Of a stretch of 7,589 nucleotides of DNA, positions 1,685-7,432 are shown one piece after another. The notes below the pieces were generated by a model that had not been told where the DNA came from, ran no database searches, and was given only the letters and a program-made list of their open reading frames with translations. This stretch comes from Candidatus Muproteobacteria bacterium RIFCSPHIGHO2_01_FULL_65_16 (lineage in GTDB: Bacteria > Pseudomonadota > Gammaproteobacteria > Acidiferrobacterales > Sulfurifustaceae). The stretch lies in NCBI GenBank assembly GCA_001785175.1, contig MFSY01000035.1, positions 1-7,589 on the forward strand, read 5' to 3'. Every line of letters begins with the position of its first letter. Positions within the stretch are counted from its first letter, which is position 1. The position numbers and the translations under genes are program-made.

Positions 1685-2185
1685 TCAGCGGCGCCAGCTC
1701 ACGCGCAGGATGTTGGCCTCGTCCGTGTACTGGTAGTCGAGCTCGCCGTGATAGGCGTGGTGCACGGCGTCGCCGATGGCGCGCGCCATCTGCATGTCCG
1801 TGGTGGTGATCATGACGTCGTCGTCCTGGGCGTCGAGCGTCATGATCCGCCGCAGCGGGTGCTCGGCCTTCTCGCGCGCCTCGACGTTGCGCGCGAGATG
1901 CAGGATCTCGTCGCGGTGCTGTTGCAGAAACGGCCCGCCGAGCGTGAGGTAGCCGCCGGGGTAGCGGTCGTGGATCCGGTGGCACGCCGGGCACAGGGCG
2001 CGGTGGGCGCCGGCGGGGGCGGCGAGCCACTGCCATCTGCCCTTGTGGTACACGGCCCCGCATTCGTTGCAGACCGTCGGCTCCTGCGGTTTGGCTCTGA
2101 GTTTGTAGGTGTCGTGCTCGTGTTCCCGGATCAGCCGGTCGCGCCGCATCCGGCGCGTCTTGTTTATGTTATACCCGTTCACCAT
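1685..2185 (-). CDS. BCAM0308-like zinc-binding protein
   Basis: The predicted product is a 166-residue cytoplasmic protein of unknown biochemical role. The basic N-terminus (RRMRRDRLIREHEHDTYK) leads into a probable zinc site made of CNEC (39-42) and CPAC (65-68). After that come RIHDRYPGGYLTL and a C-terminal half with EAREKAEHPLRRIM and ITTTDMQMARAIGDAVHHAY. This pattern is what I recall of the family named after BCAM0308, a gene in the low-oxygen-activated locus of Burkholderia cenocepacia. The ATG at 2185 is chosen because GGGAG lies 8 nt upstream; the frame stays open further upstream only as Arg-rich non-conserved sequence. It is the last gene of the minus-strand cluster, 62 bp behind the DUF6763-like gene. 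Regulation is probably from the FNR-type promoter at 2863-2911. No signal peptide or membrane segment is visible. Confidence 0.75.
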   Translation of the reverse strand: MVNGYNINKTRRMRRDRLIREHEHDTYKLRAKPQEPTVCNECGAVYHKGRWQWLAAPAGAHRALCPACHRIHDRYPGGYLTLGGPFLQQHRDEILHLARNVEAREKAEHPLRRIMTLDAQDDDVMITTTDMQMARAIGDAVHHAYHGELDYQYTDEANILRVSWRR

Positions 2186-2247: not shown

Positions 2248-2580
2248 TTATTCCTCCTCGCCTTCCTCCTTTTCCGTTCCCTCCGTGGCGCCGCGCTCTT
2301 CGAGCGGCTCGTTCCAGTCCGACTTCGTCATGTCGGTTTCGGTGTAGCCGAGATCGTCCGGCTCGACGCCGTCCATCGGCCCGGTCCAGTCCTCCGGCGG
2401 CTCGATCGGCTCGATCTCGAGCCCATACCAATCGTCCAGGTCCAGCTCCTCCACGTCGCCGTCGAAATGCTGGATATCAACCGTGCCCTCGATCTGGTCC
2501 ACGGACGTGATCTGGAACCGGTACCCCTTGTCGAGGTGCCGGTACCACTGTGCTACCACGGGATCGTTTTCTATGGGCAT
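2248..2580 (-). CDS. DUF6763-like small acidic protein
   Basis: The product is a 110-residue, strongly acidic protein with no known function. It has a conserved-looking core PVVAQWYRHLDKGYRFQI, then TVDIQHFDGDVEELDLDDWY, EPIEPPEDWTGPMD and DDLGYTETDM, which I associate with DUF6763. The C-terminal 15 residues are almost all Glu, Gly and Thr and look like a disordered tail. The ATG at 2580 has GGAGG 7 nt upstream. The gene starts 16 bp after the 75-residue gene ends, so the two are very probably co-transcribed. No cysteines, signal sequence or membrane helix are present. The family assignment is by pattern memory; the function is unknown. Confidence 0.75.
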   Translation of the reverse strand: MPIENDPVVAQWYRHLDKGYRFQITSVDQIEGTVDIQHFDGDVEELDLDDWYGLEIEPIEPPEDWTGPMDGVEPDDLGYTETDMTKSDWNEPLEERGATEGTEKEEGEEE

Positions 2581-2596
2581 GGCCGTCCTCCGTATG

Positions 2597-2824
2597 CTAC
2601 TCCTTGCGCGTCCAGATGCCGCGTTCGATGCATTGCAACAGCTCGCTGCCGCTCAACACGAACTGGCCGATCGGATAGCGGGCGTCGTTGAAATAGCACG
2701 CGCCTTCCTCCAGTTCGAGATCGAGCGACAGCTCGCTGTTCTCCTCCGCCCGGTCGAATATCGGCGACGTCTTGCGTTCCGGGTCCGGGGTCCCGACCTG
2801 GGGTGCATGGCGTGGCTTGATCAT
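2597..2824 (-). CDS. Small conserved-looking protein of unknown function (75 aa), first gene of the minus-strand cluster
   Basis: I do not recognise this family securely. The first 40 residues are polar and probably flexible (PRHAPQVGTPDPERK). The second half is compact: GACYFNDARYPIGQFVLSGSELLQC, then IERGIWTRKE, with two cysteines (43 and 65) spaced like a small beta-rich domain that could form a disulfide or bind metal. The ATG at 2824 is preceded by GGGAGAA at close spacing, a good ribosome binding site. It is the promoter-proximal gene, about 38 nt behind a predicted FNR-dependent start, with 16 bp to the next gene. Codon use and GC content match its neighbours, which supports a real gene. 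Confidence 0.65.
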   Translation of the reverse strand: MIKPRHAPQVGTPDPERKTSPIFDRAEENSELSLDLELEEGACYFNDARYPIGQFVLSGSELLQCIERGIWTRKE

Positions 2825-2869
2825 CGTTTCTCCCTCGCGTTGTCCGGTCTGTTGTGTATCTGCGAATTC

Positions 2870-2875
2870 ATTAGA
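2870..2875 (-). promoter_or_regulatory. -10 hexamer of the minus-strand cluster promoter
   Basis: On the minus strand this reads TCTAAT, five of six matches to TATAAT. A start at base 2863 puts the hexamer at -12 to -7 and the FNR-like box (centre 2904.5) at -41.5, the classic class II activator position. No good -35 hexamer is present, as expected for an activator-dependent promoter. The leader to the ATG at 2824 would be about 38 nt. Confidence 0.5.
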
Positions 2876-2897
2876 GCCAAGCCCGCGGGCGGCGGCA

Positions 2898-2911
2898 TTG
2901 ATCTAACTCAA
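2898..2911. promoter_or_regulatory. FNR/ANR-like operator 1 (TTGAT-N4-CTCAA)
   Basis: The sequence TTGATCTAACTCAA matches the FNR consensus TTGAT-N4-ATCAA at nine of ten fixed positions. FNR/ANR regulators bind such sites when their iron-sulfur cluster is intact, that is at low oxygen; DNR/NNR-type nitric-oxide sensors use similar sites. Its centre lies 41.5 bp from the predicted start of the minus-strand cluster and 82.5 bp from that of the plus-strand gene. Confidence 0.6.
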
Positions 2912-2938
2912 ATTAGGGAGCGGGACCCGAAAGCAGTA

Positions 2939-2952
2939 TTGACGTAAATCAA
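2939..2952. promoter_or_regulatory. FNR/ANR-like operator 2 (TTGAC-N4-ATCAA)
   Basis: The sequence TTGACGTAAATCAA matches the FNR consensus at nine of ten fixed positions and is a common ANR/FNR variant. Its centre is 41.5 bp upstream of a start at 2987 for the zinc-ribbon gene. It lies 41 bp, about four helical turns, from operator 1, so both dimers would sit on the same DNA face. Confidence 0.65.
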
Positions 2953-2975
2953 AGTATCAAAAAACCGGTTGTTCA

Positions 2976-2981
2976 TAGAAT
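2976..2981 (+). promoter_or_regulatory. -10 hexamer of the zinc-ribbon gene promoter
   Basis: TAGAAT matches TATAAT at five of six positions. With a start at 2987-2988 it occupies about -12 to -6, while FNR-like operator 2 is centred at -41.5 to -42.5 and replaces the -35 element. The resulting leader to the ATG at 3020 is about 33 nt. Confidence 0.5.
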
Positions 2982-3019
2982 CCACAAGCTAAAGAGATCC
3001 AATGGAAGGAGGAACAGTC

Positions 3020-3727
3020 ATGGCGAAAATGAAGGTAGCAAAGAAAGAACCGACGGGCGGCGTGGCCGGCCAGCAGGGCCAACCCGGCCGACTGGTCCCG
3101 GAGGCCGAGCGGCAGCACATGGTCGCCGAGGCCGCCTATTTCCGGGCGCTGGAGCGTGGCTTCACCGGCGGCGACTCCGTGGATGACTGGCTGGTGGCCG
3201 AGCGCGAGATCGGTCGGTTGCTGCCCAGCCCGGAGCAGCAGAAAGAGGAACTCGAGGCGTATGAAAAGTTGCGCCTGGAGTTGAAGCGGCGCCTGACCGA
3301 GGTGCGCGACACGATCAACGCCGAGACCATCCGCCAGGTCTTCGACAAGGCGGCCGCGCGGCTCAAGGAGGCCGGCGAGTACACCGCCGACACCGTTGAC
3401 AAGGTCGCGGCCAGCATCGAGAAAGACATCGCCGGCGCCGCGGCGAAGATGGGGCCGCGCTGGGAGGCGTTCACGGAGAAGAGCGCCGACCTGTTCGGGG
3501 TCTGGCGCGACCGCGGCGGCATGTTCCTCGCGCGCGCCGCCGGCGCCGTGGGCGAATGGCTGCAGCGGTCGGGGGTCAAGCTGGGGCAGCGCGTTTACCG
3601 CACCGGCGAGATGGCCGCGCCCGGGACCTTCGAGTGCACCGCCTGCGGCGAGCGCACGGAGTTGCAGACACCGGCCCACCTGCCGGCATGCGGTCACTGC
3701 CAGAAGATGGAGTTTCGGCGCTGCTGA
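3020..3727 (+). CDS. DUF2934 and zinc-ribbon domain protein
   Basis: The product is 235 residues, cytoplasmic and of unknown function. A Lys-rich start is followed by a DUF2934-like segment (about 31-64: VAEAAYFRALERGFTGGDSVDDWLVAEREI in pattern). Next comes a long charged helical region (65-185) with amphipathic, phasin-like character, and a C-terminal zinc ribbon with CTAC (206-209) and CGHC (224-227) that resembles the DUF1451 type. The ATG at 3020 is preferred over the in-frame ATG at 3002 because AGGAGG (3007-3012) lies 7 nt before it; the upstream ATG has no such site. It is divergent from the minus-strand cluster and shares the double FNR-like operator region, which suggests low-oxygen induction. 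It is convergent with the sugar dehydrogenase gene, with an 18-bp gap. The role is inferred at most as a stress or anoxia accessory protein. Confidence 0.75.
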   Translation: MAKMKVAKKEPTGGVAGQQGQPGRLVPEAERQHMVAEAAYFRALERGFTGGDSVDDWLVAEREIGRLLPSPEQQKEELEAYEKLRLELKRRLTEVRDTINAETIRQVFDKAAARLKEAGEYTADTVDKVAASIEKDIAGAAAKMGPRWEAFTEKSADLFGVWRDRGGMFLARAAGAVGEWLQRSGVKLGQRVYRTGEMAAPGTFECTACGERTELQTPAHLPACGHCQKMEFRRC

Positions 3728-3734
3728 GCCGCTC

Positions 3735-3755
3735 CGCGCCGGTGTTCACGGCGCG
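3735..3755. terminator. Bidirectional hairpin between convergent genes
   Basis: A perfect 7-bp GC stem (3735-3741 with 3749-3755) closes a 7-nt loop. A short T-run (3760-3763) follows on the plus strand, which would suit termination of the zinc-ribbon gene. The stop codon of the minus-strand dehydrogenase lies in the loop (3746-3748), so the hairpin is shared by both transcripts. Confidence 0.45.
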
Positions 3756-4909
3756 ATGATTTTCAGGATCTTGCCGCTCTTGTGATCGGCGAGGTAAAGC
3801 TCGCCGCGTTCGTCCACCCCGAAGCTGCTGACGTTATGGCGCAGACGCGCGAGCTCGCGGTTGACCGTCACGCGCGCGCCGTCGTAGCGCAGGCCCCACA
3901 GGCGTCCGCTGACGTAGTCGGCGTAGAGATAGACGCCGCACAGGGCCGGGAACTCCGCGCCGCGGTAGACGAAGCCGCCGGTGACGGACTCGCCCGCGGG
4001 ATGGCGATAGACCTGGATCGGCGGCCTGAGCCCGGTCCGGTCGCAGTCGGGATTGACGCCCGGCGTGCAGATGTCGCCCTCCATGATGTTCCAGCCGTAG
4101 TTGCCGCCCTTCTCGATGACATCAATCTCTTCCGCGTCGTCCTGGCCCACGTCGGCGAGGAAGAGCCGGCCGGTCGGCGCGTCGAACGAAAAGCGCCACG
4201 GATTGCGCAACCCATAGGCCCAGATCTCGGCGCGGCGATCCTTTCCGCCGGCGAACGGGTTGTCCCTGGGAATTGAGTAACGCAAGGGCGGTGTCTCGCG
4301 GTCCACGTCAATGCGCAGCAGCTTGCCGAGCAGGCTTGCGAGGTTCTGCCCGTTCCCGTGCGGGTCGTCGCGCCAGCCGCCGTCGCCCATGCCGATGTAG
4401 AGGTACCCGTCCGGGCCGAAGGCGAGCTGGCCGCCGTTGTGGTTGCCGTATGGCTGTTGGATCTCGAGCAGCACCGTCTCGCTCTTGCGCTCGGCGCGGT
4501 TGCGGTCGCGGCGTTTGAACCGGGAGATGCGGGTGTAGAGGCGGTCCGCGCGCGTGGTGTAGTCAACATAGAACAGGCCGTTTTCCCGGTAGCGCGGGTG
4601 GAACGCGACGCTCAGCAGCCCCTTCTCGCCGCCGCTCTCCACGCGGTCGCTGATGTCGAGGAACGGCTCCGGCAGCACCCGTCCGTCTTCAACGATGTGG
4701 ATGACGCCGCGCTGCTCGACGACGAACAATCTCCCGCCGCCGTCACCGGCGTGCGCCACGTGCGTGGGATTTTTGAAACCGCCCGCGACCTCCTGAAATG
4801 CGACGTCCGGGATCGGCGCGGTTGGGCCCTTGTCCGCACACGGCGCGGCATGGGCCGCCGTGGCCGCGCACAGAAGCGCGAAAAATATGCCTGCCTTCGG
4901 ATACGGCAC
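3746..4909 (-). CDS. Secreted PQQ-dependent sugar dehydrogenase (GSDH family)
   Basis: This is a six-bladed beta-propeller quinoprotein that would oxidise aldose-type sugars in the periplasm and pass electrons to the respiratory chain; the true substrate is unknown. The 387-residue product begins with a signal peptide (cleavage predicted after AHA, residue 21). Family hallmarks are GNHNGGQLAFGPDGYLYIGMGDGG with the likely catalytic His157, EIWAYGLRNPWRF with Arg235 near the cofactor, LADVGQD, GGNYGWNIMEG and ESVTGGFVYRG. The start is taken as GTG 4909, because AAGGAG lies 7 nt upstream and the signal peptide follows at once. The ATG at 4930 would place that ribosome site inside the gene and add residues before the signal. 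Length fits the family. Many relatives have not been shown to bind PQQ, so activity is inferred. It is divergent from dapA. Confidence 0.88.
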   Translation of the reverse strand: MPYPKAGIFFALLCAATAAHAAPCADKGPTAPIPDVAFQEVAGGFKNPTHVAHAGDGGGRLFVVEQRGVIHIVEDGRVLPEPFLDISDRVESGGEKGLLSVAFHPRYRENGLFYVDYTTRADRLYTRISRFKRRDRNRAERKSETVLLEIQQPYGNHNGGQLAFGPDGYLYIGMGDGGWRDDPHGNGQNLASLLGKLLRIDVDRETPPLRYSIPRDNPFAGGKDRRAEIWAYGLRNPWRFSFDAPTGRLFLADVGQDDAEEIDVIEKGGNYGWNIMEGDICTPGVNPDCDRTGLRPPIQVYRHPAGESVTGGFVYRGAEFPALCGVYLYADYVSGRLWGLRYDGARVTVNRELARLRHNVSSFGVDERGELYLADHKSGKILKIIAP

Positions 4910-7276: not shown

Positions 7277-7284
7277 GAAATAAT

Positions 7285-7317
7285 GCTATCAGCTATCAGC
7301 GGTCAGCTATCAGCTAA
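7285..7317. repeat. Heptad array GCTATCA, block 1
   Basis: About 4.7 units of period 7 are present, with one variant unit (GCGGTCA), ending in GCTAA. The variant is the same kind of unit seen in degenerate form upstream of the cheR-like gene. Confidence 0.75.
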
Positions 7318-7334
7318 AGCATGATTTTCACCGC

Positions 7335-7354
7335 GGAGGCGCAGAGGCGCGGAG
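7335..7354. repeat. 8-bp repeat, copy C
   Basis: GGAGGCGC and AGAGGCGC are followed by GGAG and an A-run, preceded by CATGATTTTCACCGC. It splits the heptad arrays in two, so the two families were probably inserted or expanded independently. Confidence 0.6.
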
Positions 7355-7360
7355 AAAATA

Positions 7361-7432
7361 AGCTATCAGCTAAGTGAGCGATCAGCTATCAGCTAAATTA
7401 GCTATCAGCTATCAGCTATCAGCTATCAGCTT
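7361..7432. repeat. Heptad array GCTATCA, block 2
   Basis: Three sub-blocks (7361-7373, 7380-7395, 7401-7432) are separated by short AT-rich joins. The last has four perfect GCTATCA units (7401-7428), making it the least diverged and probably youngest part. Confidence 0.75.

Follow-up and report, generated by a model that had tools for sequence, protein, structure and literature searches.

The window, meaning the whole stretch of 7,589 nucleotides that was analysed, contains two divergent gene sets. The gap at 2825-3019 parts a leftward DUF1496-DUF6763-BCAM0308 set from a rightward DUF2934-DUF1451 gene, and it carries two FNR-type boxes, each with a -10-like hexamer on its outer side. The features of the locus are:

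1685..2185, minus strand, lxa_BCAM0308-family gene (NF040826, 219 bits, cut-off 100)
2248..2580, minus strand, DUF6763 gene (PF20549, 108.8 bits, cut-off 27)
2597..2824, minus strand, DUF1496-like gene of 75 aa, first of the leftward set (PF07383, 18.2 bits, just under the cut-off of 20.2)
2863, minus strand, predicted leftward start, inferred from the -10 placement, with the left box at -41.5
2870..2875, minus strand, -10-like hexamer TCTAAT, 5.0 bits, second best of the gap (sigma-70 -10 scoring)
2898..2911, minus strand, left box of FNR type, TTGATCTAACTCAA, putative class II site for the leftward genes (motif match and a -10 at a centre offset of 32)
2939..2952, plus strand, right box of FNR type, TTGACGTAAATCAA, putative class II site for the gene on the right (motif match and a -10 at a centre offset of 33)
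2976..2981, plus strand, -10-like hexamer TAGAAT, 6.2 bits, best of the gap (sigma-70 -10 scoring)
2987..2988, plus strand, predicted rightward start, inferred from the -10 placement, with the right box at -41.5 or -42.5
3020..3727, plus strand, DUF2934-DUF1451 zinc-ribbon gene of 235 aa (PF11154, PF07295)

The DUF1496 label of the first leftward gene rests on the sub-cut-off PF07383 match and on one source name, one of the 54 homologues of the protein (P0053) being labelled DUF1496 by its source. Elsewhere in the window, a short AGCTATC-like unit, noticed by eye, is repeated 3′ of a BamC-like gene (about 7283-7432). An open frame at 161-679 adjoins a CheR-like gene and contains PNHWHLLLW, a motif typical of REP-associated transposases.

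The boxes TTGATCTAACTCAA and TTGACGTAAATCAA each have one mismatch to TTGAT-N4-ATCAA, their centres are 41 bp apart, and no third site of this quality occurs in the window. Both are in place where the sequence-only reading had located them, with 0.05 such sites expected; shuffled versions of the window contain a mean of 0.05 sites, and none of 200 shuffles contains two. The wider motif TTGA-N6-TCAA occurs 22 times in the organism's own 1.7-Mb draft genome, against 6 times for the reversed motif, and outnumbers the reversed control in 57 of 57 genomes of the order. A chance origin of the window boxes was rejected on the shuffles, the reversed control and the 57 genomes. At a spacing of 34-48 bp, 16 pairs of this motif occur, spread over 13 of the 57 genomes, and at 49-78 bp there are 9, in 7 of them; the control gave 0 pairs in both ranges. 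The window boxes are the sole pair at 34-48 bp in their own genome, which has one further pair, 75 bp apart. A class-wide scan of 369 genomes for two perfect boxes gave matches in 9 genomes. The own genome is absent from these matches, the window boxes being imperfect, and the scan added nothing on spacing.

The gap was scored for -10 hexamers on both strands with a sigma-70 -10 table. TCTAAT and TAGAAT, which had been proposed as the two -10s, are present and are the top two hexamers of the gap across both strands. Their centres lie 32 bp (left) and 33 bp (right) outward of the box centres, and a composition estimate gives about 9e-5 for the chance that each box has a hexamer of this quality at 31-33 bp. 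A distance of 32 bp from box centre to -10 centre corresponds to a box at -41.5. The proposed placement of each box at -41.5 from starts at 2863 and 2987 fits the left box and its predicted start; the right box is at -42.5 if the hexamer is put at -12 to -7, as is customary (start 2988), and at -41.5 if the start is 2987. The proposed mirror symmetry holds in the window, on the predicted starts, to within 1 bp, and as an exact symmetry it is not conserved in relatives. Class II FNR promoters need no -35 element. The description of both promoters as class II without a -35 agrees with -10s at class II distance and with a promoter scan of 2500-3800 that detected no -35/-10 pair of the sigma-70 type. 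Crossed use of the boxes was rejected: the best hexamer at 31-33 bp scores just 1.2 bits for the left box acting on the plus-strand gene and just 3.3 bits for the right box acting on the minus-strand gene.

Relatives of the flanking genes also have boxes upstream. A box lies within 350 bp in 32 of 86 DUF1496 loci, the window included, and the control motif in 0 of 86. These 86 come from the 98 loci L009-L106; loci with less than 350 bp upstream, repeats of another locus, and L023, which shares a contig with L025, were left out. For the DUF1451 gene, 7 of 16 loci (from the 30 loci L107-L136, window included) have a box within 300 bp, with a control count of 0 of 16. The BCAM0308 family, in all 20 loci found, has a box within 600 bp in 15 (control 0/20). 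Of the five BCAM0308 loci lacking a box, two are the window and G024, and another offers just 47 bp to search. In the window and G024, BCAM0308 stands behind DUF1496-DUF6763; a box precedes DUF1496, and none lies directly before BCAM0308.

The boxes of these relatives are phased with -10 elements. Of 59 non-redundant boxes from relatives, 27 have their best -10 in the range of 14-75 bp at a downstream distance of 31-33 bp, where 2.9 are expected. The set comprises boxes of DUF1496, DUF1451 and BCAM0308 genes, reduced by identity from 65, with the window left out. The corresponding binomial P, 3e-20, presupposes independent loci, an assumption that related genomes do not satisfy. When the 51 boxes upstream of DUF1496 and DUF1451 genes are taken together, window included, a strong -10 lies at exactly 32 bp in 15, and each of the other offsets between 12 and 69 has 0 to 4 -10s of the same strength. 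One relative of the DUF1451 gene, L114, has a box with a strong -10 at 32 bp. This phasing is the strongest evidence suggesting that the boxes are activating class II sites.

No box was found within 350 bp in 54 of the 86 DUF1496 loci, nor within 300 bp in 9 of the 16 DUF1451 loci. In 14 of the 54 (L029, L032, L033, L034, L043, L047, L050-L053, L057, L090, L091 and L100), a gene matching the DUF2934 part stands in tandem just upstream, and 8 of these 14 have betaproteobacterial record titles. Of the 14, three carry a box some 555 bp upstream of the DUF2934 gene, with no fitting -10. As the 14 tandem loci are without a box within 350 bp, the DUF2934-DUF1496 partnership is broader than the box. 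At L048, L055 and L065, where DUF1496 is divergent from a DUF2934-like gene that lacks the ribbon, there is either no box at two mismatches or one without a fitting -10.

Several other boxes of the own genome lie 50 to 107 bp before genes for PilZ, nitronate monooxygenase, starch synthase, DUF4912, CBS and pyridine-nucleotide oxidoreductase proteins. The remaining ones are inside open frames or without a clear target; a polyketide-cyclase-like gene was rejected as a target, the box sitting behind the end of the gene. One own-genome box (L003, about 1501) is 52 bp upstream of a PilZ-domain gene that encodes MEHRW in its N-terminal part, and genes with a similar start sit across the gap from DUF1496 in G039, G056 and G038. 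In four genomes, double boxes 35-37 bp apart occur in or near the start of one gene (L147 154-204, L149 1501-1550, L151 1501-1551, L144 1501-1549). This gene reads like a haem A synthase / COX15, and its double boxes are a possible conserved double-FNR promoter.

Double-box loci were viewed for 15 of the 16 pairs at 34-48 bp, one pair being without a locus, and for outer -10s in the 14 that remain when the window is left out. Strong -10s on both outer sides occur in 2 of these 14. They are mirrored pairs, one of them between USP and AAA/APH genes at a spacing of 35 bp (L137, G023), the other between DUF2934 and USP genes at 36 bp (L142, G033). The spacing of 41 bp is found in the window alone among the 15 loci. 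A single relative, G036, turned up in which the two genes are likewise divergent neighbours; those of G039 also diverge, with some 2.4 kb between them. The DUF1496-side box of G036 has two mismatches with a -10 at 34 bp, and its other -10, TAGCGT, is weak. The relative with the same divergent genes keeps two boxes, one of them weaker, and does not keep the spacing of 41 bp, the boxes of G036 being 92 bp apart. Downstream of the DUF1451 gene of its divergent pair, G036 carries genes for Hsp20 and S30AE (ribosome-hibernation-like) proteins (L152 4502-5582).

The spacing had been read as a design that sets both boxes on the same DNA face. The distance does not behave as a design feature, measuring 92 bp in G036 and 35 or 36 bp in the two further mirrored pairs. 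The shared face fails likewise: the offset from whole helical turns is 1.0 bp in the window, and 2.5, 3.5 and 4.5 bp in the other mirrored pairs and G036. A fixed 41-bp spacing with a shared helical face was therefore rejected, as both spacing and phase differ in relatives. The value of 41 bp is probably incidental because relatives differ, and the mirror symmetry, judged from these comparisons, is probably incidental as well. Double class II sites between divergent genes are met repeatedly, at spacings that vary, and the symmetry should therefore not be over-read.

A single regulator had been proposed for both directions; the own genome encodes at least three FNR/DNR-type candidates for the two boxes. 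Four of its proteins pass the HTH_Crp_2 cut-off. Two can be aligned almost throughout with a solved regulator of FNR type (PDB 8qto, 5cvr; best E 6.6e-64 and 6.5e-49), and both have the four cluster cysteines, three in CX2CX5C and a fourth, and an E-T-x-S-R recognition helix. The nearest solved relative of a third protein is DNR (3dkw, E 1.8e-44); this protein lacks the FNR cysteine motif and has the helix E-T-L-S-R.

The best reading, and in our judgement a highly probable one, is that the gap holds two divergent class II promoters of FNR/ANR/DNR type. It is based on the enrichment of boxes by gene family, the -10 phasing at 31-33 bp, the regulators in the genome and the two other mirrored pairs, and these same lines agree with the earlier assignment of an FNR/ANR-type class II site to each divergent gene set. 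At low oxygen (or with nitric oxide), a regulator dimer would bind each box, take the place of a -35 and touch the sigma and alpha subunits of the polymerase on its outer side. Leftward transcription would cover DUF1496-DUF6763-BCAM0308, probably as one operon, and rightward transcription the DUF2934-DUF1451 gene. Both promoters would be induced together because both are predicted targets of the same regulator class.

The boxes may instead be read mainly by the DNR-like regulator, with the same anatomy and a response to nitric oxide rather than oxygen. DNR is a haem-based sensor of NO, as opposed to the iron-sulphur oxygen sensor. This reading has in its favour that such a protein is encoded (the one nearest to 3dkw) and that the right box carries TTGAC, which DNR tolerates or favours; to our knowledge, DNR boxes and ANR boxes cannot be told apart by sequence alone. 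It is nevertheless rather unlikely, as two FNR-type regulators are encoded too and the BCAM0308 family is named after a locus described as induced at low oxygen (PMC9104464, PMC4981469). A single working box, the other being a remnant or a chance match, would agree with the single box upstream of the DUF1496 gene in many relatives and with the mismatch in each window box. This is very unlikely given that each box has a matching outward -10, the two hexamers being the best of the gap, and that relatives of the DUF1451 gene have boxes too (the 7 of 16 with the window, including L114 with its strong -10 at 32 bp).

A further alternative accepts both class II sites and adds coupling, in which each box would also influence the opposite gene from a position near -82.5, either helping as a class I site or acting as a brake, and the 41 bp would matter. 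The distances in the window fit, 41 bp being within 1 bp of whole turns, and in tandem-FNR work in E. coli an upstream FNR site is said to act as a brake. Such coupling is quite improbable against the spacings seen in G036 (92 bp) and in the two further mirrored pairs (35 bp, 36 bp), their phase shifts of 2.5-4.5 bp, and the restriction of 41 bp to the window among the 15 double-box loci. A wider form of the idea is speculative and unlikely. It would make mirrored class II box pairs a recurring module of the order, which ties a pair of low-oxygen stress genes together as a single two-way switch. Each box would drive its own promoter from -41.5 and adjust the opposite one from a more distant upstream position, and in the window the module would couple the DUF1496-DUF6763-BCAM0308 operon to the DUF2934-DUF1451 gene.

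The reading as two divergent class II promoters ties DUF1496, DUF6763, BCAM0308 and DUF2934-DUF1451 to one likely low-oxygen regulon. It offers a testable function class for DUF1496, DUF6763 and DUF2934-DUF1451, families known mainly by their DUF numbers, and it connects the BCAM0308 family with FNR/DNR-type boxes outside the order of Burkholderia. The BCAM0308-family gene of the present order usually has its own box; where it stands behind DUF1496-DUF6763, the box heads that set instead.

Of 23 FNR-activated E. coli promoters whose starts are known, 19 have a site within 4 bp of -41.5 (PMC3688515). The window promoters resemble the E. coli class II FNR promoters of the narG, dmsA and nirB type in having a box at about -41.5, measured in the window from predicted starts, and differ from them in that two such promoters stand back to back. 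No exact match to a divergent arrangement with two FNR boxes was found in the open-access literature, which does not show its absence from print. Separate Fnr sites are suggested for the divergent genes narU and ftrB of Sphingopyxis granuli in PMC7713065, where the ftrB sites are the authors' suggestion; the window is similar in having a separate site per direction, and the genes differ. In Pseudomonas, PMC6588701 places Anr boxes between divergent qor/hemF and cioA/PA3931. For nirS/nosR2 of Dinoroseobacter shibae, reporters and a mutated box were tested, and one box serves two divergent low-oxygen operons (PMC5398030). The window, with its predicted low-oxygen genes, is like the Fnr/Dnr regions nirS/nosR2 and hemA3/dnrE of D. 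shibae in having divergent genes, one gap and class II-positioned sites. However, D. shibae has one central box for both directions (-39.5, -41.5), whereas each direction in the window has its own box.

The Burkholderia lxa locus is induced at low oxygen according to PMC9104464 and PMC4981469. The latter also reports expression of the lxa locus of B. contaminans in normal aerobic conditions, which counts against a low-oxygen reading. The window shares with this locus the BCAM0308 family, the sole family compared. The kind of promoter found here is known from these systems, and the value of the locus is in the gene families that it brings together.
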